Assembly (NCBI GenBank): GCA_016795365.1
Contig: JAEUHN010000009.1
Span: 62,001-126,000, forward strand
Length of the DNA stretch: 64,000 nt
DNA from: Verrucomicrobiaceae bacterium
Lineage (GTDB): Bacteria > Verrucomicrobiota > Verrucomicrobiia > Verrucomicrobiales > Verrucomicrobiaceae
Reading direction: 5' to 3'
Shown: piece after piece, positions 2,705-60,182 of the stretch
Position numbering within the stretch: position 1 is the stretch's first letter
Layout: each line of letters starts with the position of its first letter
Made by a program: the position numbers and the translations under genes
Notes under the pieces: generated by a model
The model's database searches: none
What the model was told of the DNA's origin: nothing
Seen by the model: the letters and a program-made list of their open reading frames with translations, nothing else

Positions 2705-5700
2705 ATGCCTTATCTGGCCTTCAACCTCAATGACGGTAATGAGTTCGTCTTCGATCTCCTCGACGAGCGACTTTCCATAGGTCGAGATTCGAAGAACGAT
2801 ATCGTCATCGACAACAGCTTCATTTCCGGGTTTCACGCCGAGTTTTTGAAGCAGGCGGATGGGGCCTACGAGGTGGTCGATTTGAAGTCGTCCAACGGCA
2901 CCTTCCTCAACGGCAAGCGCATCGAGCGCTCGCGGCTCAAGGGGGGGGACCGTGTGCAGTTCGGCCAGCTCGAAGCCCGCTTCCGTGAGCGCGCCCCGAA
3001 AGGCCTCGCACCAGCCGACACTGCCAAAGCGGCGACCTCCACAGCTGCGGCCGCAGGCAAAGGCATGCCCGCACGTCCTGATGGTCGCCGAGGCGACACC
3101 GAAAGCGTGCCCACTGTCTCGCCCAAGGTGCCCGCACCTCCGGCCCACATCACCAAGCCCGTGGCCCCGGCCGAGGGTCCCGCCGAGAAGACGAGCGACA
3201 TCACCCTGCCCTCGCGAATGCTGCCCACTCCGGCCGCACCAATGCCGCCACCGACGGCGAAGATGACGCCCGCACCGGTCACGCCCGCGCGCGACGAGGC
3301 CCCCGCACTCAGGCAGGAACTCGAAAAGCTTCGCGATCAGATCGCTGCCGAAACAAGACGCCGCGATGAACTCGTCGCCATCTCGAGCCAGCTCGAGGCA
3401 CGGAAGAAAGACCTCGCCGCGGCCGAAGCGGAACTGGAGGCGAAACGCAAGCAAGCCGAGACCTTCGTCAAGACCCAGGCCGATCTCAGCATCGTGCAGG
3501 CCGACCTTGCCAAGGCCCGGGCTGAACTCGCCGCCGCAGAACAGCAGAGCAAGGATCAGAAAGCAGCAGCCGCTCAGCTCGCGACGCTGAAAAAGGAAAT
3601 CGACGCCACGCAGGTGCGCCTGGGCGGCCTTCAGCGTGATGCGGACGAGAAGTCATCGCTGCTCAAAAAGCACAGCACTGAGGAAAAGCAGGCCGCAGAC
3701 AAGCTCGCCCTGTTGCGCGATCAGATTGCCACGACAGAGGGCAAGCTGAACGAGGTCTCGAAGCAACGTTCCGAGGCAGCCTCGGCTCTGGCCCAGAAGC
3801 AGCAAGCCGAACAACAGTCTGCATCCGAAAAACTCGCTCGCGTCCTGGCCGAGGTGGCCGCTGCGGAAGCTAGACTCGCCAGCGCCCATGATCAGGCCAA
3901 GACACTGACCTCCGGCAATGCCCAGCTCTCCGGGCTTCAGAAGGAAATCGAGAGCGCTCAGGCCCGGCTGGCTTCCGTCCAGAAGGACTCCGAAACCCAG
4001 GCCGCTGCGCTTGCGAAGCAGTTAGCCGAGAAGCAGGCCGAGATCGCCAGCACGGAGACTGCGCTCGTTGCTGCCCGACAACTGCTGGAAACCACGCGCG
4101 ACAAGGCAGCAAAGGGTGCCAATGAGCAGCTGGCTTCCATTCAGAGAGAAATCTCAGCCGCCGAGAAACGGATGGCGCAGCTCAAGAAGGACAGCGACGT
4201 CAAGACGCAGGCCCTGGAGCACCAGACTAGCGCCGAGAAATCAGCGACCGAAAAGCTGGCGAAGGTTCAGAAGGAACTCACCGCTGTCGAAGCCTCGCTC
4301 GCCACCACTCGTCAGCAGCTGGAAGCTGACCGAGAAAAAGCAGCCAAGATGGCGAGCGAGCAGCTCGCCGCGCTCAACAAGGACATTGCCACGGCTGAGC
4401 AGAGGCTCGCCGCCGTGCAGAAGGATCACGAGGCGAAGTCCGCAGCCCTGGCACAACAAGCCACCACCGAGCAACAGACGGCAGACAAGCTCACGAAGCT
4501 CCAGTCCGAAGTAGTAGCTGCCGAGTCGGCATTGACGGCTGCCCGCAAGCAACTTGAGGCGGATCGTGAAAAGGCCGCCAAAGCCGCCGCCGAACAACAA
4601 GCCGCAATCAACCAGGAGATCGCCGCCGCCGAGCAGAGGCTCGCCTCCTTGCAGAAGGATGGTGAGGCAAAGGCCGCAGCGCTCCAGCAGCAAACGACGG
4701 CCGAGAAAGCCACCGGTGAGAAGCTGGCCAAGCTTCAAAAGGAAGTGGCGAGCACTGAGTCTGCTCTTGCCAAAGCCATCGAGACACAAGCCGCCGTCGA
4801 AAAGGAGGCAGCGGACAAACTTGCCAAGCTGGAACAAAATCTCGCGACCACCGAGACCACGCTCAAGGCGACGCGCAAACAACTCGAAGCCGAAAAGGCC
4901 GAGACGGCGCGCATCGCAGGTGCCAAGGCGGGTGCCGTCGAGACCAGCGCGGCCATCGCCGCACTGGTGGAGCAACGTGTGGCCCTGGATGCGGAGCTTG
5001 CCGGTCTGCGCGATCAGATTGAGGCCAGTCAGGAGCGTTTGTTGGATCTCAACAAGCAGGGTGCGAAGTCGATCGCCTCGTCCAAAGCGGCGACCGAGGC
5101 CGAAACTTCACGATTGCAATCCTTGCAGGCCGAGGCGGCCAGTGTCGAAGCTTCGCTCGCAGCGAAGCGGGCGGAGTTCGAGCAGGTGTCCAATGAGCAC
5201 GCCCGGCAGCTGTCGGATCTCGGTGAGCGGGTGCAGTCGCTTCAGCAGCACGAGTCCACCTTGGGCGAGAAGCTCCTGGCACTGGCTGGTGGCGCGGGTG
5301 CCTTTGCCAGCGTGACTCATGCGATCCAGGCACTCGACGATCATCACTCGACGATCAGCGCCCAGAAGGATGAACTGGCTGCGGCCATTCAAGCGCTACG
5401 TGCCGAGCAAGCCGCCGTCAATGAGCAGCTCGCTGGTGATCGCGAGGCAGGTGCGGCACAGCGTTCCCTGGTGCGGACCTTGACGCGTCAACGCGAGGAG
5501 GCGGAAGTGCTCGCGAAGCAGGCCGAGGCTCGTCATGAGCAAGCGCGCGAGTCGCTCGCGGCGACGCAAAAGGAACTCGCTGACGCCCAGGCTGCGGTGA
5601 AGGCGGAGCAGGCAACGCTGGATCGCCTGAGCGATCAGACCATCGCTGCTCGCACGGAGTTGCAGACGGTCTCGGATGATCTCACCCAGGCAACGGCGAA

Positions 5701-7870
5701 ACTCAAAGCCACGCAGGCCGAGCTGGCGACGGCGCAGTCACAGTTGAGCGCCGTGGTGACGCAGAACTCGGAGAAGCACATCGAGCTGGCTGATCTTGAA
5801 GCCCAGCTCGCGCAGCGCGCCGAGGAACACGATCAACTCGCGGCCAAACACAGCGCTCTCGATGCCGCCTTGTTCGCGCTCACGGCTCAGCACGCGGATC
5901 ATTCAAATCGTTTGGCGCAAACGCAGGCTGCGTTCGCTGCCGCCGAACAATCGCTGGCCACCAAGCACGCCGAGGTGGCTGCTGCCGAGAAAACCCATGC
6001 TGGACTTCAACAGCAGAATCAGGTGCTCGACACCCGCCTTGCCGAGCTTGCGGACACGGAGCAAAAGCTGGCTGCGGTCAAAGCTTCGCTCGATCAGGCG
6101 AACAAGGAACTGGTGGCACAACGCACGATCTTCCAGAAACTGCAAGCCGAGTCCTCGACGGCACAGCAATCGCTCACGATGACATCGGGCGATCTCGAGA
6201 CAGCGAAGTCTCTGCTCGCCCGCACCATTGAGCAGCAGAAGCAAGTGGAGGTGGCTCTTCAGCAAGCCGACGCCGCTCGCAGAGAGGCAGATCATGCGAC
6301 CGCTGCTCTCCGCGCGGAGTCGGCCAGCCTGGAGAGGCTGATGCAGGACAAGCGGGCGGCGTTCGATGTCGAAGCGGCTGCCAAGCAAAAAGAACTCGAA
6401 GGCACGGAGGCACGTCTCGCCACGTCTGCCGAGAGACTGGCGGCCGCCGAAAAACGTCTGGCCGAGTTGGCCGATCTCGAGGCCCGTGTGGCAAATGCCA
6501 CGAAGGCGCTCGCCGATGCGGAAAAGCTACGTTTGCTCGAAGAGAAGACCTTGGCCGATCTGGCCAAGCAGCAGGACAAAGCGCGCAAAGAACTGACGGC
6601 GCTCGATGCGGAAGCTGCATCCACACGCGCCGCCGCAGACGACCATGCTCGCCGTGCGCAGGCTGAGGAGACTCGTGCCGTCGATGCCGAGAGGAGGCTG
6701 AAGGCTGCCGAACTGGCCCTCGCATCGGCGGAAGCGAAGTCGGCGGAAGCCCACGCTGCGCTCCAGGCCACGCTCGTTGAGCAGGATCGCGTGAAGGCTG
6801 GCATCCCGCAGTTGTCCGCCGAAGTGGCCACGCTCACGGCAGCCATCGCGAGCCTCGTTGCTCAGCGCGATGATCACTCCCGCCAGCTGCAGCAGATGGC
6901 AGCCAGCGCAGACCACGAGGTTAAAACGAAGGCTCAGCAGGTCACCGTCTTGCAGACCGAAGAAACGCGCCTCACTCAATCACTGGCGGCGAAGAAAGAG
7001 CAGGTCCGCGCGCTGGATGTGGATCTCAACGCCAAGCTGGACAAGCTCCAATCCGCCGAGCGAACGCTGCAGGAGATGGTGGGCACCAAGGCTTTGTCTT
7101 TGGCCGAAGCCGTGCGCGAACTGGAGAATCGCCAGCGCGACGCCACTCGAACGTTGCGCGAAGCAGGCCAGCAGGAGCTAGCCCTTCAGGCGAAGATCAG
7201 CTCGTTGCAGGAGGCCGTGAGCCGCGAGACGCAACGCGTGGAAAAGCTCAAACGCGATGGCACCTACGCCGAGGAGAAGACCAAGATGGCGCTGGCGGAT
7301 GTGGAAGGCCGCATCGCGGAATTCAATCGCATGGAGCAGGAGGCGATCGCCCGGGCGGAGACGGCTCGCCGCGAGATCGCTCGTCTGGAGCCGCGCCATC
7401 AAGAACTCACGGCCATCGACACCCAGGTGCGCCAGCTTCAAGAGATCGACCGCCGTCTGCGCGGTCAGCTGGAGGAACTCGAAGAGAAGCACGAATCCCT
7501 GCGCCGCGGCCTCGCCAGCGACGAGGCGACGGTGATGATGTTCGCCACCGATCTCATCAAGCGCATCGACTTGATCGACATGCTGATCCAACGCTACGCG
7601 GGACAAAATGGCGGTGTGGACCAGCAACTCCGCACGCTGCGTGCCGCTTTCGAAGACATCCTGCACCAGCACAGCGTGGTCGAATTTGATGTGCCCCCGA
7701 ACACGGAGATCGACATCGCTCTGCGCCAGCGCATCGCGGTGATCGAGAGCGAGCCCGGCGAATCCAAGGCCCGCGTGGTAGCGAGTTTCCGACCTGGCTT
7801 TGTTTATGCGCCAGCGGAAGGACGCGAAGTTGTTTTGAGGAAGGTTGAAGTAAAAACCTCCAGTCGCTAG
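2705..7870 (+). CDS. FHA-domain giant coiled-coil protein with GrpE-like C-terminus
   Basis: A 1721-residue protein in three parts. Residues 1-95 form an FHA phosphothreonine-binding domain, with SIGRD at 24-28, a conserved His at 44 and SSNGTFLNG at 62-70. Residues 96-200 are a Pro/Ala-rich linker. From about 200 to 1590 the protein is almost unbroken Ala/Glu/Lys/Gln coiled coil, including tandem 78-residue repeats. The last ~120 residues (about 1600-1715) look like GrpE, the DnaK nucleotide-exchange factor: a helix with DLIKRIDLIDML, a second helix with LRAAFEDILHQHSV, then a beta region ending in VVLRKVEVK, as in GrpE. No membrane segment is seen. An Hsp70 gene follows 39 bases downstream, which supports a co-chaperone role. 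The FHA call is firm; the GrpE likeness is by eye. Confidence 0.85.
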   Translation: MPYLAFNLNDGNEFVFDLLDERLSIGRDSKNDIVIDNSFISGFHAEFLKQADGAYEVVDLKSSNGTFLNGKRIERSRLKGGDRVQFGQLEARFRERAPKGLAPADTAKAATSTAAAAGKGMPARPDGRRGDTESVPTVSPKVPAPPAHITKPVAPAEGPAEKTSDITLPSRMLPTPAAPMPPPTAKMTPAPVTPARDEAPALRQELEKLRDQIAAETRRRDELVAISSQLEARKKDLAAAEAELEAKRKQAETFVKTQADLSIVQADLAKARAELAAAEQQSKDQKAAAAQLATLKKEIDATQVRLGGLQRDADEKSSLLKKHSTEEKQAADKLALLRDQIATTEGKLNEVSKQRSEAASALAQKQQAEQQSASEKLARVLAEVAAAEARLASAHDQAKTLTSGNAQLSGLQKEIESAQARLASVQKDSETQAAALAKQLAEKQAEIASTETALVAARQLLETTRDKAAKGANEQLASIQREISAAEKRMAQLKKDSDVKTQALEHQTSAEKSATEKLAKVQKELTAVEASLATTRQQLEADREKAAKMASEQLAALNKDIATAEQRLAAVQKDHEAKSAALAQQATTEQQTADKLTKLQSEVVAAESALTAARKQLEADREKAAKAAAEQQAAINQEIAAAEQRLASLQKDGEAKAAALQQQTTAEKATGEKLAKLQKEVASTESALAKAIETQAAVEKEAADKLAKLEQNLATTETTLKATRKQLEAEKAETARIAGAKAGAVETSAAIAALVEQRVALDAELAGLRDQIEASQERLLDLNKQGAKSIASSKAATEAETSRLQSLQAEAASVEASLAAKRAEFEQVSNEHARQLSDLGERVQSLQQHESTLGEKLLALAGGAGAFASVTHAIQALDDHHSTISAQKDELAAAIQALRAEQAAVNEQLAGDREAGAAQRSLVRTLTRQREEAEVLAKQAEARHEQARESLAATQKELADAQAAVKAEQATLDRLSDQTIAARTELQTVSDDLTQATAKLKATQAELATAQSQLSAVVTQNSEKHIELADLEAQLAQRAEEHDQLAAKHSALDAALFALTAQHADHSNRLAQTQAAFAAAEQSLATKHAEVAAAEKTHAGLQQQNQVLDTRLAELADTEQKLAAVKASLDQANKELVAQRTIFQKLQAESSTAQQSLTMTSGDLETAKSLLARTIEQQKQVEVALQQADAARREADHATAALRAESASLERLMQDKRAAFDVEAAAKQKELEGTEARLATSAERLAAAEKRLAELADLEARVANATKALADAEKLRLLEEKTLADLAKQQDKARKELTALDAEAASTRAAADDHARRAQAEETRAVDAERRLKAAELALASAEAKSAEAHAALQATLVEQDRVKAGIPQLSAEVATLTAAIASLVAQRDDHSRQLQQMAASADHEVKTKAQQVTVLQTEETRLTQSLAAKKEQVRALDVDLNAKLDKLQSAERTLQEMVGTKALSLAEAVRELENRQRDATRTLREAGQQELALQAKISSLQEAVSRETQRVEKLKRDGTYAEEKTKMALADVEGRIAEFNRMEQEAIARAETARREIARLEPRHQELTAIDTQVRQLQEIDRRLRGQLEELEEKHESLRRGLASDEATVMMFATDLIKRIDLIDMLIQRYAGQNGGVDQQLRTLRAAFEDILHQHSVVEFDVPPNTEIDIALRQRIAVIESEPGESKARVVASFRPGFVYAPAEGREVVLRKVEVKTSSR
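4118..4819 (+). repeat. Tandem 78-codon repeats inside the coiled-coil gene
   Basis: Three successive units start at 4118, 4352 and 4586, exactly 234 bases apart. Each encodes a pattern of EQ-x(6)-I-x(3)-EQRL-x(3)-QKD followed by AAL-x-QQ-T-x-E and then RKQLEADREKAAK; the third is diverged at its end. A partial, older unit lies just upstream. The spacing keeps the coiled-coil heptad in register and points to growth of the rod by internal duplication. Confidence 0.75.
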
Positions 7871-7909
7871 ATTTTCTGCTAACATCCCTCCACTCCCTCC
7901 CTTTTCCTT

Positions 7910-9397
7910 ATGGCTGAATTTGTTGGCATCGATCTTGGCACCACGCTCTCCGGGCTGGCCTATCTCAAAGCAGACGGCAACCCTGAGATCGTCCCGAATG
8001 CAGATGGTGAGCGCCTCACGCCTTCCGTGGTTTATTTTGATTCCCATGAAGATGTGAAACTCGTAGGCACCGCTGCCCGCGACGGCGGTGATCCTGATCG
8101 CACCATCTTCCAGGTGAAGCGCTACATGGATGATCCTGAGCACGTCATCAAAATCGATGGCAAGGACTGGACGCCCTCCGAGATCTCCGCGCTCATCCTT
8201 TCGAAGCTCAAGCGTGATTGCTCCAAGATCGTGGGCGACATCAACGAGGTGGTGATCACCGTGCCGGCGAACTTCAATGAACTCGCCCGCAAGAGCACCA
8301 TCGCCGCAGCTGAGATGGCCGGGCTCAAGGTGCGACGCCTGGTGAACGAGCCGACCGCAGCGGCGGTTTACTACGCCCACAGCCAGGGCGTGCAGGGCCG
8401 CGTGCTGGTCTTTGACCTCGGCGGCGGAACGCTGGATACCACCATCCTCGAGGTGGTGGGTGACAACATTCGCATCCTCACCTCTGAAGGCGCGCGCCAC
8501 CTCGGCGGTGGCAATTTCGACGAGATTCTGCTCGAGGCCTACGATGAGCAGTATCGCAAGCAGGTGAACGCCGCGCTTTACAATGACGAACGTCAGCGCC
8601 GTCGCTCGCTACAGGCTGCTGAGGATGCGAAGAAGATGCTTTCGAAGCTGCAGCGCGTGTCCGATACCATCGGGAACGACACCTCCGGCCTCGCCCGCAT
8701 CGACCTCACTCGCGAGTCCTTCGAGAAGCTGATCCGCAACATGATCACCCGTGCGCTGATGCTGGTGGAGCAGGCGCTCGATTCCGCCAAGCTGAAGCCG
8801 AGCGACATCGATCACGTCGTGCTCGTGGGTGGATCATCCCGTATTCCCAAGGTGAAGCAGATGCTCGAGAAGCACTTCGGCAAGGCTCCCAAATCCTGCG
8901 GCAATGTGGACGAATGCGTAGCCCTCGGTGCCGCTTTGTTCGCCAAGAAATCTGCCCGCATCCAGGAGGTGTGCAATCAGAGCTACGGCACGCTGGCCAT
9001 GATCTACAATGCGGCCACCGGTGAGGAGAAGGTGCAGAACTCGATCGTGATCCCCAAGAACTCCTCCATCCCGTGCAGCCGCACGCAGATGTATGTGACC
9101 AGCGAGGACAACGAGCGCGTGATCGAAGTGGATATCACCCAGGGTGAGGACGACGATCCGAAGTATGTCGATGTCATCGGTCGCATCACGTTGGAAGTGC
9201 CTCCGAATCGCCCGAAAGGTTGCGAGGTTGCCGTGACCTTCAGCTACGACGAGAACCAGCGCGTGCGCGCACTCGTTGTGGACAAACAATCTGGACGCAG
9301 CCGTGAAGTGGCCGTGTCTTACAAAGGTGCGGGTGTGCTCTCCGACGAAGAGCTGAAACGCCGCAGCAGTTTCCTGCGCCAGATGCGCATCGAGTAA
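7910..9397 (+). CDS. Lidless Hsp70/DnaK-like chaperone
   Basis: A 495-residue Hsp70 relative. The ATPase domain is complete: GIDLGTTLSGLAY near the start (phosphate 1), DLGGGTLDTTILEV (phosphate 2) and VLVGGSSRIPKV (adenosine). A short beta substrate-binding domain follows from about residue 380 to 480. The helical lid and C-terminal tail of DnaK (usually about 610-640 residues in total) are missing. The phosphate-1 motif has Leu where DnaK usually has Asn. The gene lies 39 bases after the FHA/GrpE-like gene and 21 bases before a small helical protein, so the three are very likely one operon. Clients are unknown; a partner inside an FHA-scaffolded complex is inferred. Confidence 0.9.
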   Translation: MAEFVGIDLGTTLSGLAYLKADGNPEIVPNADGERLTPSVVYFDSHEDVKLVGTAARDGGDPDRTIFQVKRYMDDPEHVIKIDGKDWTPSEISALILSKLKRDCSKIVGDINEVVITVPANFNELARKSTIAAAEMAGLKVRRLVNEPTAAAVYYAHSQGVQGRVLVFDLGGGTLDTTILEVVGDNIRILTSEGARHLGGGNFDEILLEAYDEQYRKQVNAALYNDERQRRRSLQAAEDAKKMLSKLQRVSDTIGNDTSGLARIDLTRESFEKLIRNMITRALMLVEQALDSAKLKPSDIDHVVLVGGSSRIPKVKQMLEKHFGKAPKSCGNVDECVALGAALFAKKSARIQEVCNQSYGTLAMIYNAATGEEKVQNSIVIPKNSSIPCSRTQMYVTSEDNERVIEVDITQGEDDDPKYVDVIGRITLEVPPNRPKGCEVAVTFSYDENQRVRALVVDKQSGRSREVAVSYKGAGVLSDEELKRRSSFLRQMRIE

Positions 9398-9418
9398 CCT
9401 CCCACCCTCACGATCCCC

Positions 9419-9811
9419 ATGTTCAAGAAGGTTCTCCAGTCCATTTCCAAGTCGCTCCAGCGCCAGACCACTCCAGCACCCGCCAAGCCCGCCGAAGCTG
9501 ACAAGCCCAAGGCAGCTGCCGAAGCGAAGCCTGCTGCCAAGGTGGAAAAGGCAACCGCAGCCCCGGTCGAATCCACGCTCAAGAAGATCGCCGCTCCGCC
9601 CGCTCCTGCACCCGAGCCCGCGATGACGCCCGAGCAGCTATGCGGCATCGAGCCCAAGATGAACAAGGATCAGATCCGTGACCGGCTGAAGCTGCTCTAC
9701 CGGCGCTACAACCGTGCGGCTTCCAGTCTCGATGCCAAGACGCGCAACGAAGCTGACAAGATGCTGACCGCGATCGTCAAGGTGCGCGAAAAAACCTTCG
9801 GCGAGATTTAG
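9419..9811 (+). CDS. Small Ala/Pro/Lys-rich protein with helical C-terminus
   Basis: A 130-residue protein. The first ~70 residues are a low-complexity Ala/Pro/Lys linker after an amphipathic start (MFKKVLQSISKSLQRQ). The last ~60 residues look helical, from MTPEQLCGIEPKMNKDQI through RDRLKLLYRRYNRAASS to EADKMLTAIVKVREKTFGE. That helix-turn-helix layout recalls helices I-III of a J domain, but the HPD tripeptide needed to stimulate Hsp70 is absent. It is the third gene of the FHA/GrpE-like and Hsp70 operon and overlaps the convergent membrane-protein gene by 4 bases. The J-like idea is a guess from layout and context. Confidence 0.75.
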   Translation: MFKKVLQSISKSLQRQTTPAPAKPAEADKPKAAAEAKPAAKVEKATAAPVESTLKKIAAPPAPAPEPAMTPEQLCGIEPKMNKDQIRDRLKLLYRRYNRAASSLDAKTRNEADKMLTAIVKVREKTFGEI

Positions 9812-49443: not shown

Positions 49444-51841
49444 CGGGGAGAGGGGGGAGTTGGACGCCACGGAAGGTGTGAACGCTGTCCTCCTTGCAGC
49501 TGAAGCTGAGAAAGTGGAGGTCTGACATTGGGGCTCTGTAGGCAAAGGCAAGCTCCCCAGGGGTAATGGGAAATCCGGCACCTACACGAGTCAGAATCTG
49601 CGACTTGCCATTGTGCCTGCCAAAGATGGTAAATTCCCGACTGATCGAGCAGGAGATGCGGACCAACACGCCGCCATCGTGATCGTGAGCAACTTCAAGA
49701 AGCTCGGTGAACTCATCCAGCTTCGTCGGGCTTTTGAACTGATCGGGTGCCTTCTCGACCAGGTATTTGGTTTCGCCAGCAAAGTGATGCAGCTCGATAT
49801 CCAAGGGTCGCTTCTCCAACCCTCTCAAGACTCCGAGGGAGATGGAATGCACCACGCCTGGCAGGACATCGGGTGCATTGTAGTCCCAATAATACACAGT
49901 GCGGGAAAGCACATCCCGAGGGGTCGTCACGGGCGGTTCAGGGTGACTGCCATCATCAAACACGAGCATCGAGGAGAGCCAGTTGCTCGATACAAATCTC
50001 GGGCTGGGCTTGTCTTCGCTGGTGATGGCTACCTGAAGCGCAGGGAGCGGCACGTTGCGATAAGTCTTGGTTTTCATCCACGGTCCGAGAGCCCGCAGCT
50101 CATCGTCCGTTAAACGACTGCCATCTGGATGAAACGCAGGGCCAATATCGTTGGGGCTCATCTGCCAGCGCAGGAACTTGATGATCGGAGTTTTGTCTGC
50201 ACGAGGGACAGTTGCACGCTGGCCTGCACCTTGGCTGGTCTGCGGAACCGAAGCCTTTCCAGATGCATGTGGAACCAGCACGCGCCTCCTGGTTGACGGT
50301 GTCATGGCAGATGACGGTGCGCGCCAGTAAACGCTCACCACTTTGCCGATCAGATCTTTGTTCGGTAGCTTCTCCTCCGGCCACTGATTGCGCTGGATGA
50401 TGAAGGCGTCGGCTTCTACGCGGACGACGCGACTCACCCAGACTTGGTCGCCGTGCCGATGAGCGATGATGTCGCCGGGATGGAAGGACTTGCTCAGCTT
50501 CCAGACGAGCATGTGACTGCCTGGCGGGATCTCGGGCTCTACCGACTTCCCATTGATCACAAAGGCCTGCACCACCCAGGCACGCAGGGGCAGGACGATC
50601 AGCAGGGCGATGACGATGTTGTGCAAGGCACGCTGCCACCAGGGCTGGCGTGGCACGAAGACTTGATCGTGGAACCGACGGTTCGCCCATTCAATGAACG
50701 ACGCGATGAACAGGAAGACCAGGAACGCGCTCAGCACGCTGAGCTTCTCCAGTCCCGGCACAAACCCGAGGAAGCCAAGCAAACCTGGCAGCGAGAGCTT
50801 CATCAAACGCTGACCCCAGACCGTGTGGAAGCCCATGGCATGGTAGAGCGCCTGCTGTTTGTTGGCAGGCGTGACTGGCGGATGCGTGATGGTCTGCACC
50901 TGCGTTTTCAAATCGGCCGCCGTCTGCCAGCGCAGTTCCGGCTTCTCGCTCAGCGCTCGCAGCACGACTTCATCCAGCCGAACATCCATCTGCACCCGAT
51001 GCGATGGCGGTGTGAGTTTGCTGCCGGGGGTTTCGCCGGTGAGCAACTCGTAGAGCACCACGCCGAGCGAGTAGATGTCCGCGCGATGATCGACGTGCTG
51101 TGGATCGCTTTGCTGCTCGGGTGCGGCATAGCGCGGGGTGCCGATGGCAAGGGTAGAACGACTTTCCAAAGTCGTTGGCGCAGACGCCTCGGCAACGAAC
51201 TTGGAAGTTCGTTCTACCATCTTGGCAATGCCGAAGTCCGCGATCTTCACGCGGCCTTCTTTGTCGAGCAGGAGGTTCTCGGGCTTGATGTCGCGGTGCA
51301 CGATGCAGTGGTCGTGTGCGTATTGCAGCGCCTCGCACACGGGCGGCACGATGGCCAGCGCCTGCTCGGGCGTGAAGCGACCCGCGCTCATGGCTTGGCG
51401 GAGATTGACGCCATCGACGAACTCCATCAGCAGGAAGTAAAAGCCCTCTGTGTGGCCGAAGTCGTGAATCGTGACTATGTTCGGATGGCTCAGCGCCGCG
51501 AGTGCTTGCGCCTCCTTCGCGAAGCGTTCCGCAAAGGCTGCGTCCTGCACGCGCTCGGGGGCGAGCAGCTTGAGCGCGACAAGGCGGTTGAGCGACTTCT
51601 GCCGCGCCTTGTAAACGACGCCCATGCCACCGCGGCCGATCTGCTCCAGCACTTCGAGTTCTGGAAACGCGGCCGCGATTTGCTCCAGCGATGGCGCAGG
51701 CGCGGAGGCGACGGGCACGGTGTTGTCCTCGGTGGCAAAGGCTGCGCGTGCCATCAGGCACTTCGGGCACAGGCCCGCGATCGCGTCGGGGGCCAGCGTT
51801 GATCCGCAGCGGGGGCAGTGAGAGGCAGGGGTCGTGGTCAT
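49433..51841 (-). CDS. Ser/Thr kinase fused to a signal-peptidase-like domain
   Basis: An 802-residue protein. It starts with a zinc ribbon (HCPRCGS to CPKC). The Hanks-type kinase follows at about 60-320: GRGGMGVVYKA, VALKLL, CIVHRDIKPENLL, IADFGIA, TPRYAAPEQ. Then come two or three membrane segments (about 360-430) and a signal-peptidase-I-like stretch at about 430-510: INGKSVEPEIPPGS with the Ser, FHPGDIIAHR, then WVSRVV where active peptidases have a Lys. A last domain (about 560-800) with WKTKTYRNVPLP-like beta sequence is unrecognised. A 67-base palindromic element is read in frame between DFG and APE. It is followed by an ECF sigma gene. Confidence 0.88.
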   Translation of the reverse strand: MTTTPASHCPRCGSTLAPDAIAGLCPKCLMARAAFATEDNTVPVASAPAPSLEQIAAAFPELEVLEQIGRGGMGVVYKARQKSLNRLVALKLLAPERVQDAAFAERFAKEAQALAALSHPNIVTIHDFGHTEGFYFLLMEFVDGVNLRQAMSAGRFTPEQALAIVPPVCEALQYAHDHCIVHRDIKPENLLLDKEGRVKIADFGIAKMVERTSKFVAEASAPTTLESRSTLAIGTPRYAAPEQQSDPQHVDHRADIYSLGVVLYELLTGETPGSKLTPPSHRVQMDVRLDEVVLRALSEKPELRWQTAADLKTQVQTITHPPVTPANKQQALYHAMGFHTVWGQRLMKLSLPGLLGFLGFVPGLEKLSVLSAFLVFLFIASFIEWANRRFHDQVFVPRQPWWQRALHNIVIALLIVLPLRAWVVQAFVINGKSVEPEIPPGSHMLVWKLSKSFHPGDIIAHRHGDQVWVSRVVRVEADAFIIQRNQWPEEKLPNKDLIGKVVSVYWRAPSSAMTPSTRRRVLVPHASGKASVPQTSQGAGQRATVPRADKTPIIKFLRWQMSPNDIGPAFHPDGSRLTDDELRALGPWMKTKTYRNVPLPALQVAITSEDKPSPRFVSSNWLSSMLVFDDGSHPEPPVTTPRDVLSRTVYYWDYNAPDVLPGVVHSISLGVLRGLEKRPLDIELHHFAGETKYLVEKAPDQFKSPTKLDEFTELLEVAHDHDGGVLVRISCSISREFTIFGRHNGKSQILTRVGAGFPITPGELAFAYRAPMSDLHFLSFSCKEDSVHTFRGVQLPPLPDAK
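51152..51218. repeat. In-frame palindromic element inside the kinase gene
   Basis: 67 bases with outer arms GGTAGAACGA and TCGTTCTACC. Inside are two hairpins, AACGACTTT-CC-AAAGTCGTT and AACGAACTT-GG-AAGTTCGTT, joined by a small GGCG-CAGA-CGCC stem, so it can fold as a cloverleaf. On the minus strand it encodes VERTSKFVAEASAPTTLESRST, placed between the DFG and APE motifs, a stretch ordinary kinases lack. It looks like a mobile REP-type unit that was inserted without breaking the frame. Confidence 0.88.
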
Positions 51842-58505: not shown

Positions 58506-60182
58506 TCACTCTTCCGGCGGGAAGTAGGGATTCAGAAACGAATCGAGTTCCTCGCCAGCCTCGCGGATGCGCGCAGGGTCCTGTGAGGCAAGCGCGCGTT
58601 CGAAGGTATCGACGACCATCGTCAAGGCATCGCGCTCGGCACCTCGGACGTCGGCCCACAGACGACCGGCACGCTCCAGGCGGGCACGGTTCTGCGGCGT
58701 ATCACGCGGATGGGTTTTGAGCGGCTGCAGACGGGCGATGGCTTCGCGAATGTCTTCCTTGCTCATCGTGCCTGGGCGTTGCTCGAAGACCTCACTCACC
58801 TTCTGCCCGTTGTGCAAGATGGTGACCTCCACCTCGAGGATGCCATTCATGTCATAGCTGAAACGCACCTCCACCACACCGGGATCTTTTTGTCCGGCGC
58901 GATGCTTCAGGCCCTTCACTCGGATCTCGCCGATGCGCTGGTTCTCACGCGTCAGCCGGCTCTCGCCTTGATAGACCTTGAGATGGATTTCGTCCTGGTC
59001 AGGATGCAGCGTGTTGAATCTCTCGCTGCGGCTGAGCGGCACGGTGGTGTTGCGATCGATGATCGGCGAGAAGTAGCCATCGTGGACTTGATTGGCCATC
59101 ACCTTGGACACTTCCACGCCCAGGCTGTGCGGACACACGTCGGTGAGCACCAAGTCCTTCACGGCTTCATTGCGGGCGCACAAGGCGGCCTGCACCGCTG
59201 CTCCCAGCGCAACCACGCGATCGGGATCGACCGTGCGATTCGGCTCCAGATCGAGTTCGTCCAGCAGCACAGCGGAGACGATGGGCATCCGGCTGGCACC
59301 ACCCACGAGGAGCACGCCATCAAGGTGCTTCTTCGTGAGCTGAGCGTCGCGAATGCAGCGTCGCACCACGGGGCGCAGGCGCTGGGTAAGTTCATAAGTC
59401 GCTTCGCCGAAGTCCTTGCGCGTGACCTCGATGTCATTGCCCGCGAGGCGAATCATGGCGCGATCACTTGTGGTCATCGCACGCTTGAGTTGCTCCACCT
59501 CGGCGCGAAACCGCAGACGCTCGGAGACTGGCGGACTCCATTGATACTTCCGGCAGAGCCAGTTCATCAGCATTTCCGTGTAGTCCTCGCCACCAAGCCG
59601 AGATTCGCCAGCGCTCGCCTTTACCTCGACCACACCTTCAAAGCTCTCGAGCAGTGTGACATCGAAGGTGCCACCGCCGAGATCGAAGACGAGCAGCGTG
59701 TTCAAATCGCTGTTCTCACGATACCCATACGCGAGCGCGGCGGCGGTCGGTTCATTCAGAAGCCGCTCCACCTTGAGCCCTGCGATCTGTGCCGCCTCCA
59801 CCGTGGCCTGGCGCTGCTGATCGAGGAAGTAGGCAGGCACCGTGATGACCGCCTTGTCCACCGGCTTGCCCAGGCGCAATTCGGCGATGCGCTTCATCTC
59901 ACGCAACACGACAGCCGAGCACTCCACCGGGCTCCACGACCGACCGCCGAAGCGGTAGTTCGTGGGCGTGCCCATATCGCGCTTGAAGAACGCGCGCCCG
60001 GAATCCGGTGCCGTGATGAGCCTGTCCTTCGCCGCCCGCCCCACAAGCAAGGCTCCGTCCTCCGACACCGCCACGGCCGAAGGAATGAGCGTCTCGCCCG
60101 ATTCATTCGCAAGCACCTCCGCTTCACCCTCCGTGAAGTGTGCGACGAGGCTGTTCGTTGTGCCGAGATCAATGCCGACCAT
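58506..60182 (-). CDS. hscC: HscC-type Hsp70 chaperone
   Basis: A 558-residue Hsp70, the same length class as E. coli HscC (556 residues) and shorter than DnaK. Phosphate 1 is VGIDLGTTNSLVAHF, phosphate 2 is LVFDLGGGTFDVTLLE, and the adenosine motif is VLLVGGASRMP. The linker LVLTDVCPHSLGVEV and a short helical tail are characteristic of HscC. HscC works with its own J protein in E. coli, but none is adjacent here. It is the second Hsp70 of the window and is closer to standard sequence than the lidless one. Confidence 0.9.
   Translation of the reverse strand: MVGIDLGTTNSLVAHFTEGEAEVLANESGETLIPSAVAVSEDGALLVGRAAKDRLITAPDSGRAFFKRDMGTPTNYRFGGRSWSPVECSAVVLREMKRIAELRLGKPVDKAVITVPAYFLDQQRQATVEAAQIAGLKVERLLNEPTAAALAYGYRENSDLNTLLVFDLGGGTFDVTLLESFEGVVEVKASAGESRLGGEDYTEMLMNWLCRKYQWSPPVSERLRFRAEVEQLKRAMTTSDRAMIRLAGNDIEVTRKDFGEATYELTQRLRPVVRRCIRDAQLTKKHLDGVLLVGGASRMPIVSAVLLDELDLEPNRTVDPDRVVALGAAVQAALCARNEAVKDLVLTDVCPHSLGVEVSKVMANQVHDGYFSPIIDRNTTVPLSRSERFNTLHPDQDEIHLKVYQGESRLTRENQRIGEIRVKGLKHRAGQKDPGVVEVRFSYDMNGILEVEVTILHNGQKVSEVFEQRPGTMSKEDIREAIARLQPLKTHPRDTPQNRARLERAGRLWADVRGAERDALTMVVDTFERALASQDPARIREAGEELDSFLNPYFPPEE

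Follow-up and report, generated by a model that had tools for sequence, protein, structure and literature searches.

GrpE is familiar as an exchange factor that is small and soluble, and in the bacterial DnaK/GrpE/DnaJ set an Hsp70 is grouped with two partners, one of GrpE fold and one J-derived. The stalk of the GrpE dimer consists of parallel helices that lie N-terminal to its beta heads (PMC12987570). In HscA and HscC the GrpE signature is deleted, and these Hsp70s probably do not use GrpE (reviewed in PMC8215388). Pam16/Magmas is a J-like protein that lacks the HPD motif and cannot stimulate Hsp70; it works with an Hsp70, a J-protein, and the GrpE homologue Mge1 (PMC8605242). The systems linked to GAP1-N2 GTPases, as described in PMC7159879, sometimes contain an Hsp70 without a peptide-binding domain, as well as a DnaJ-FNIII protein.

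Here, we describe a locus whose building blocks are all known and whose combination is unusual. The DNA comes from Verrucomicrobiaceae bacterium (assembly GCA_016795365.1, contig JAEUHN010000009.1, positions 62,001 to 126,000 of the forward strand). We refer to this whole stretch of 64,000 nucleotides as the window; coordinates below are window positions, and the locus under study spans 2705-9811. It holds three genes that share one direction (+), with intergenic gaps of 39 and 21 bases. A sequence-only reading had proposed a two-component design, in which an FHA-coil-GrpE protein has its own lidless Hsp70. Those two components held up, whereas gene 3, which lies within the same span, had gone unmentioned. 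The features are as follows.

2705..7870 (+), gene 1: fusion of FHA, giant coiled coil, and GrpE, 1721 aa in one open frame, with Pfam FHA and GrpE matches
2705..2992 (+), FHA domain, residues 1-96: PF00498, phosphothreonine-pocket residues intact
3305..7384 (+), coiled-coil rod, residues 201-1560: 3.5-residue periodicity, one proline (by sequence)
7460..7867 (+), GrpE-like end, residues 1586-1721: stalk helices and beta domain, by PF01025, AlphaFold2 (AF2), and VIA-align
7910..9397 (+), gene 2: lidless Hsp70, 495 aa; PF00012 at 332 bits, match ending at 509/599
7910..8959 (+), Hsp70 nucleotide-binding domain (NBD), residues 1-350: from alignments, ATPase motifs kept, GrpE-signature loop shortened
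8972..9361 (+), Hsp70 SBD-beta: from alignment with DnaKs, no lid, linker motif VLLLDV not kept
9419..9811 (+), gene 3: 130 aa, J-like domain without HPD, kept in 42/57 relatives
9419..9457 (+), gene 3 N-terminus (MFKKVLQSISKSL): conserved, amphipathic, basic, likely membrane anchor
9623..9808 (+), J-like helical hairpin, residues 69-130: from an AF2 model and a homology chain, N-R-A at the HPD position

Results and Discussion

Gene 1 joins an FHA head to a GrpE fold through a long coil

The likeness to GrpE that had been suspected at the C-terminus, and for which a profile and fold comparison had been proposed, was matched by both approaches. Pfam PF01025 scored 33.8 bits on the C-terminal 176 aa (residues 1546-1721) against a cut-off of 25.8, and the whole gene 1 protein also passed this gathering cut-off (26.9 bits); 26 of 28 relatives, each scanned singly, matched the same profile. 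The C-terminal 140 residues, modeled by AlphaFold2 from an alignment of 28 relatives, gave a confident structure (mean pLDDT 89.6) in which stalk helices precede a beta domain. When this model was compared with the PDB using Foldseek, the chains ranked 1 to 9 were all GrpE or GrpEL1, and VIA-align superposed it on E. coli GrpE (1dkg_A) over 103 residues with a Z of 12.5 and an rmsd of 2.9, against a Z of 7.9 for the best non-GrpE row. Searching the PDB by sequence with profiles of the GrpE end and of gene 3 returned chance matches only. By profile and modeled fold, the C-terminus of gene 1 is GrpE, and as a dimer it may act in nucleotide exchange on an Hsp70. A canonical GrpE is also encoded in the host genome (157 bits).

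Residues 201-1560 contain a single proline, no Trp, and no Cys; hydrophobic positions in this stretch repeat most strongly every 3.5 residues. Judged by this composition and periodicity, the middle of the protein is a real coiled coil, as the sequence-only reading had it. DNA-level tandem repeats were sought in the coil, and none were found beyond two trivial ones. The coil is joined exactly where the GrpE stalk precedes the beta domain, so the rod is most simply read as a prolonged GrpE stalk. With approximately 1360 residues, it has a computed length of about 200 nm at full extension. The length is not conserved, however: relatives of gene 1 range in total from 294 residues, with hardly any coil, to 2388, and their rods from almost nothing to over 2000 residues, so we rejected a fixed rod of about 200 nm as a conserved feature. 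The coil spaces its two ends without setting a fixed distance.

At the other end, residues 24-87 matched the FHA domain (Pfam PF00498, 72.2 bits), and the phosphothreonine-pocket positions GR26-27, S41, H44, N64, and N69 were conserved in 26 to 27 of 27 relatives; the FHA domain is as firm as had been stated, with its pocket residues intact. FHA and GrpE occur together in one open frame in 25 relatives. The host genome yielded 46 protein-kinase matches. A Ser/Thr protein kinase lies within the window itself, as a strong match in an 821-residue open frame at about 50978-51655 (-).

Gene 2 encodes an Hsp70 without a lid

Gene 2 matched Pfam HSP70 (PF00012) with 332 bits, the match breaking off at position 509 of the 599 in the model; aligned with five full-length DnaKs, the protein ended just past SBD-beta. 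The absence of a lid, already noted from the letters, is thus seen in two ways. The architecture, an NBD with ATPase motifs followed by SBD-beta, is that of the Hsp70 superfamily, and the orthologues are 60-98% identical with invariant ATP-site motifs. We rejected an assignment to DnaK proper, because the scores were below the curated cut-offs (351.6 vs 648 for NF001413 and 344.5 vs 822.6 for TIGR02350) and because the alpha-helical lid and the VLLLDV linker are both missing. HscA was rejected as well (289.5 vs a curated cut-off of 708.6).

Two further changes bear on how this Hsp70 could work. The linker motif VLLLDV of DnaK is not kept, the region reading EVCNQS, which makes normal interdomain coupling doubtful. 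The DnaK of the same genome is canonical and has the full GrpE-signature loop, whereas in gene 2 this loop is five residues shorter. As far as the alignment can tell, this shortening resembles the change in GrpE-independent Hsp70s and argues against a textbook cycle. Taken together, the shortened loop and the lost linker suggest either that the GrpE end and gene 2 are co-adapted or that the usual nucleotide exchange is gone.

The window also encodes a second, standalone Hsp70 of 558 aa (58506-60182, -), which scored below the NCBI cut-offs for DnaK and HscA. It groups with a paralogue from the relative G003, apart from the lidless Hsp70.

Gene 3 encodes a J-like protein without the HPD motif

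The last 60 residues of gene 3 were conserved in 42 of 57 relatives, a count that omits one marginal match, in G012. Its N-terminus (MFKKVLQSISKSL) has a hydrophobic moment of 0.68 and a net charge of +3, and is similar in most relatives; this amphipathic, basic segment is likely a membrane anchor. The C-terminal domain was modeled by AF2 as a short helix and a helical hairpin (pLDDT 76). With this model, J-domains topped the Foldseek list but at E > 1, and VIA-align gave a Z of only 6.3. Scanning the gene 3 relatives against Pfam returned scattered weak matches, none of them to DnaJ (PF00226). Direct hhalign comparisons with J domains reached a probability of only 5-22%; they were in register, with scores of 20-22 against at most 14.5 in 30 column-shuffled controls.

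Since these direct matches are weak, the J-likeness rests on a chain of homology through TerB proteins. The gene 3 profile found the C-termini of longer, membrane TerB-type proteins (E = 7e-11, 4e-7, and 8e-11) in three distant Verrucomicrobiota; their N-termini are transmembrane-like, and two of them carry TerB. One of these distant homologues aligns through TerB into HPD-bearing J domains of the DjlA type (TerB and DnaJ in Pfam). The HPD motif was absent from all gene 3 homologues aligned, which have N-R-A or similar in its place. Sequence comparison thereby traces the domain via membrane TerB proteins to DjlA-type J domains, and given the missing HPD and a descent seen only through this chain, we call the product J-like and not a J-protein. 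A plasmid search returned no relative of the TerB - J-like protein.

The three genes are conserved together

Among 57 relatives, the GrpE-tailed protein was found in 43 and an Hsp70 of the gene 2 type in 40. Both were present in 39 genomes, the first only in 4, the second only in 1, and neither in 13 (Fisher P = 1e-8 across the 57 relatives, with shared ancestry ignored). The two genes were adjacent in 33 of the 39 and apart within the same genome in six. The neighborhood search thus bears out the conservation of the pair in related genomes, and in combination with the profile and fold matches it means that the proposed design, an FHA-coil-GrpE protein with a lidless Hsp70 of its own, stands. 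Within the family of the host, both proteins are present in 34 of 36 genomes.

The flanks of the set, compared at 35 loci, were mostly unshared, which indicates that the three-gene set itself is the unit that is kept. A conserved wider operon was sought at these loci, and only the upstream divergent gene recurred widely (12/35). In the window this neighbor (1759-2616, -) encodes 285 aa and has no Pfam or NCBIfam match; in G012, a gene of similar length stands at the same divergent position too, though the Hsp70 is lost there. As to distribution, in a scan of named genomes with gene 3 alone as the query, which FHA - GrpE fusions outside Verrucomicrobiota could escape, all 41 loci were labeled Verrucomicrobiota or members of it. 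Named carriers found in this way include Prosthecobacter, Brevifollis gellanilyticus, and Verrucomicrobium strains.

There are informative exceptions. The complete genome G012 has an intact FHA-coil-GrpE gene without the Hsp70 and without gene 3, G040 and G056 have shorter GrpE-tailed proteins without the lidless Hsp70, and in the incomplete genome G021 a GrpE-tailed protein was seen and a lidless Hsp70 was not. Conversely, an FHA-coil protein of 1075 aa in G041 (L139:5650-8874) stands beside the Hsp70 and gene 3 without a GrpE end, and no other GrpE-tailed copy was found in that genome. The three genes are thus separable, and gene 1 might also serve other Hsp70s. G053 has two further short GrpE-tailed proteins, at L189 and L190 (458 and 390 aa), of which only one carries FHA; the stretch examined there contained no Hsp70 gene.

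Selection and origin of the set

We computed dN/dS against a relative from the same genus. The FHA (0.028), GrpE (0.063), NBD (0.020), and J-like (0.029) parts, and the Hsp70 as a whole, are under strong purifying selection. Gene 2 residues 351-495, the SBD-beta region, had the lowest value of any sizeable stretch in the set (0.009), and as the most constrained stretch it suggests a specific ligand. The coil was the fastest-evolving segment, still constrained (0.105); it is 31% identical to that of a more distant relative.

In the Hsp70 tree, the proteins encoded beside gene 3 and those encoded beside TerB - J-like proteins formed one group (support 1.0), which stood apart from DnaK and the other paralogues. 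In the distant genomes G304 and G225, a weakly GrpE-like gene adjoins the Hsp70 (20.1 and 16.0 bits, below the cut-off); in G402, the gene at the corresponding position had no GrpE match. On the simplest reading, an old, ancestral set would have comprised a membrane TerB - J-like protein, an Hsp70, and a GrpE-like protein. In Verrucomicrobiales, the GrpE stalk would then have been lengthened, an FHA head added, and the transmembrane-TerB part swapped for an amphipathic anchor.

Other arrangements were seen around these genes. The sets of TerB - J-like protein and lidless Hsp70 in G304 (L132) and G402 (L177) are both followed by an M48-family peptidase, and at L177 a phage integrase and an ankyrin-repeat protein are nearby as well. 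At L133 (G002:C171), a NACHT NTPase adjoins GrpE and a pair of Hsp70s, of which one is a VWA fusion, in a different kind of extra set. A third kind of extra Hsp70 set has a TPR protein, GrpE, and Hsp70 in one row (L134, G002:C183, and L135, G050:C18), the row at L135 also including a small J-domain protein.

A proposed Hsp70 machine and its alternatives

We consider the chances about even that the three genes form a dedicated Hsp70 machine, targeted by phosphothreonine, anchored at the membrane, and built on a rod that extends the dimer stalk of GrpE. Gene 1 would be a parallel dimer whose far end bears a pair of FHA heads and whose near end bears a pair of GrpE beta heads, its rod a stretched stalk that continues the paired stalk helices of the GrpE dimer. 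The FHA heads would bind a phosphothreonine mark on the target, so that recruitment would be governed by Ser/Thr kinases. The GrpE heads would dock on the NBD of the Hsp70 from gene 2 and control its nucleotide state. With SBD-beta alone, the lidless Hsp70 may act not as a general foldase but as a clamp that locks weakly on one specific peptide or a handful of them. Gene 3 would sit on the inner membrane via its amphipathic N-terminus, and its HPD-less J-like domain may hold the Hsp70 or keep it in check, much as Pam16 does in the mitochondrial import motor. The whole would serve as a nucleotide-gated tether or scaffold between a phosphothreonine-marked target and the membrane. We put forward more tentatively, and with some doubt, the stronger idea that the exchange factor itself has become a cytoskeleton-like rod: a GrpE stalk of about 200 nm with a phosphothreonine reader at one end and, at the other, a lidless Hsp70 clamp and a Pam16-like membrane anchor. 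If so, kinase signaling would place the force or grip of a chaperone at a distance from the membrane.

The losses in genes 2 and 3 could also be read as the end of the chaperone cycle. The GrpE end would then be a dimerizing dock and the Hsp70 a static adaptor, with the rod in an organizing role, either at the cell envelope or within the cell body. We judge such a structural scaffold unlikely, while giving it real weight: gene 2 lacks the lid, has lost the linker motif, and has a shortened GrpE-signature loop, HPD is lost in gene 3, and the length of the coil varies freely. What speaks for a working Hsp70 instead is that the NBD and the ATP-site residues are nearly invariant (dN/dS 0.020 for the NBD) and that constraint is strongest on SBD-beta (0.009), consistent with a functional ligand site.

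Gene 1 might instead be a localized exchange factor for the housekeeping DnaK, with the lidless Hsp70 as a side partner. The genomes that break the set fit this idea, G012 in retaining gene 1 without genes 2 and 3 and G040 and G056 in lacking the partner Hsp70, and so does the full GrpE-signature loop in the canonical DnaK of the same genome. We find it improbable nonetheless, as the genome already has its 157-bit canonical GrpE and the lidless Hsp70 accompanies gene 1 in 39 of 43 genomes, next to it in 33. A conflict or defense module akin to the Hsp70-GrpE-DnaJ sets beside GAP1-N2 GTPases appears very improbable. The GAP1-N2 systems, according to PMC7159879, also join Hsp70, GrpE, and a J domain, and the relative G002 has its set of NACHT NTPase, GrpE, and two Hsp70s. 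Against this, the set is near-universal in the host's family (34/36 genomes with both proteins), no effector-like gene recurs beside it at the 35 loci, and there was no PADLOC match.

Comparison with known chaperone systems

We found no description of the FHA - coil - GrpE fusion or of this architecture in the open-access papers searched, in line with the sequence-only reading, which knew of no such system. A GrpE fold that ends a very long coil with a phospho-reader would make the activity of Hsp70 depend on place and on kinase signaling. The set is almost universal in one family that has cultured members (Brevifollis and Verrucomicrobium strains), which makes these proposals testable. It is also an example from bacteria in which a J-like protein without HPD accompanies an Hsp70 and a protein of GrpE fold, and it bears on the possible origin of motors, such as that of mitochondrial import, from parts resembling DjlA and GrpE.

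The locus shares with bacterial DnaK/GrpE/DnaJ the grouping of its three kinds of partner in one set. It differs in that GrpE sits at the tail end of a long, FHA-headed coil, the Hsp70 is without lid and canonical linker, and the J-like protein is without HPD; the host genome also holds a separate canonical DnaK/GrpE/DnaJ set. The mitochondrial import motor likewise combines an HPD-less, membrane-associated J-like protein with an Hsp70 and a GrpE homologue (PMC8605242), membrane association being predicted in our case. There, however, Mge1 has neither FHA nor rod, mtHsp70 has a lid, and the true J-protein Pam18 takes part, while the present set encodes none. DjlA, a membrane co-chaperone with TerB and a J domain, resembles the distant homologues of gene 3, which have a transmembrane-like N-terminus, TerB (in two cases), and a C-terminal J-derived domain, but HPD is missing from them, and gene 3 itself has neither TerB nor a transmembrane segment. 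Like gene 2, HscC and HscA have an altered GrpE-signature region (PMC8215388) and specialized partners; they keep the lid and are thought to be GrpE-independent, whereas gene 2 travels with a GrpE-fold protein. The GAP1-N2 GTPase-linked systems also place extra Hsp70 and GrpE genes in one neighborhood, as PMC7159879 describes. Across our 35 loci, a single neighbor recurs widely. We saw no FNIII or effector here, and the passages of PMC7159879 consulted describe no FHA - coil - GrpE fusion, the element that distinguishes the Verrucomicrobiota set.
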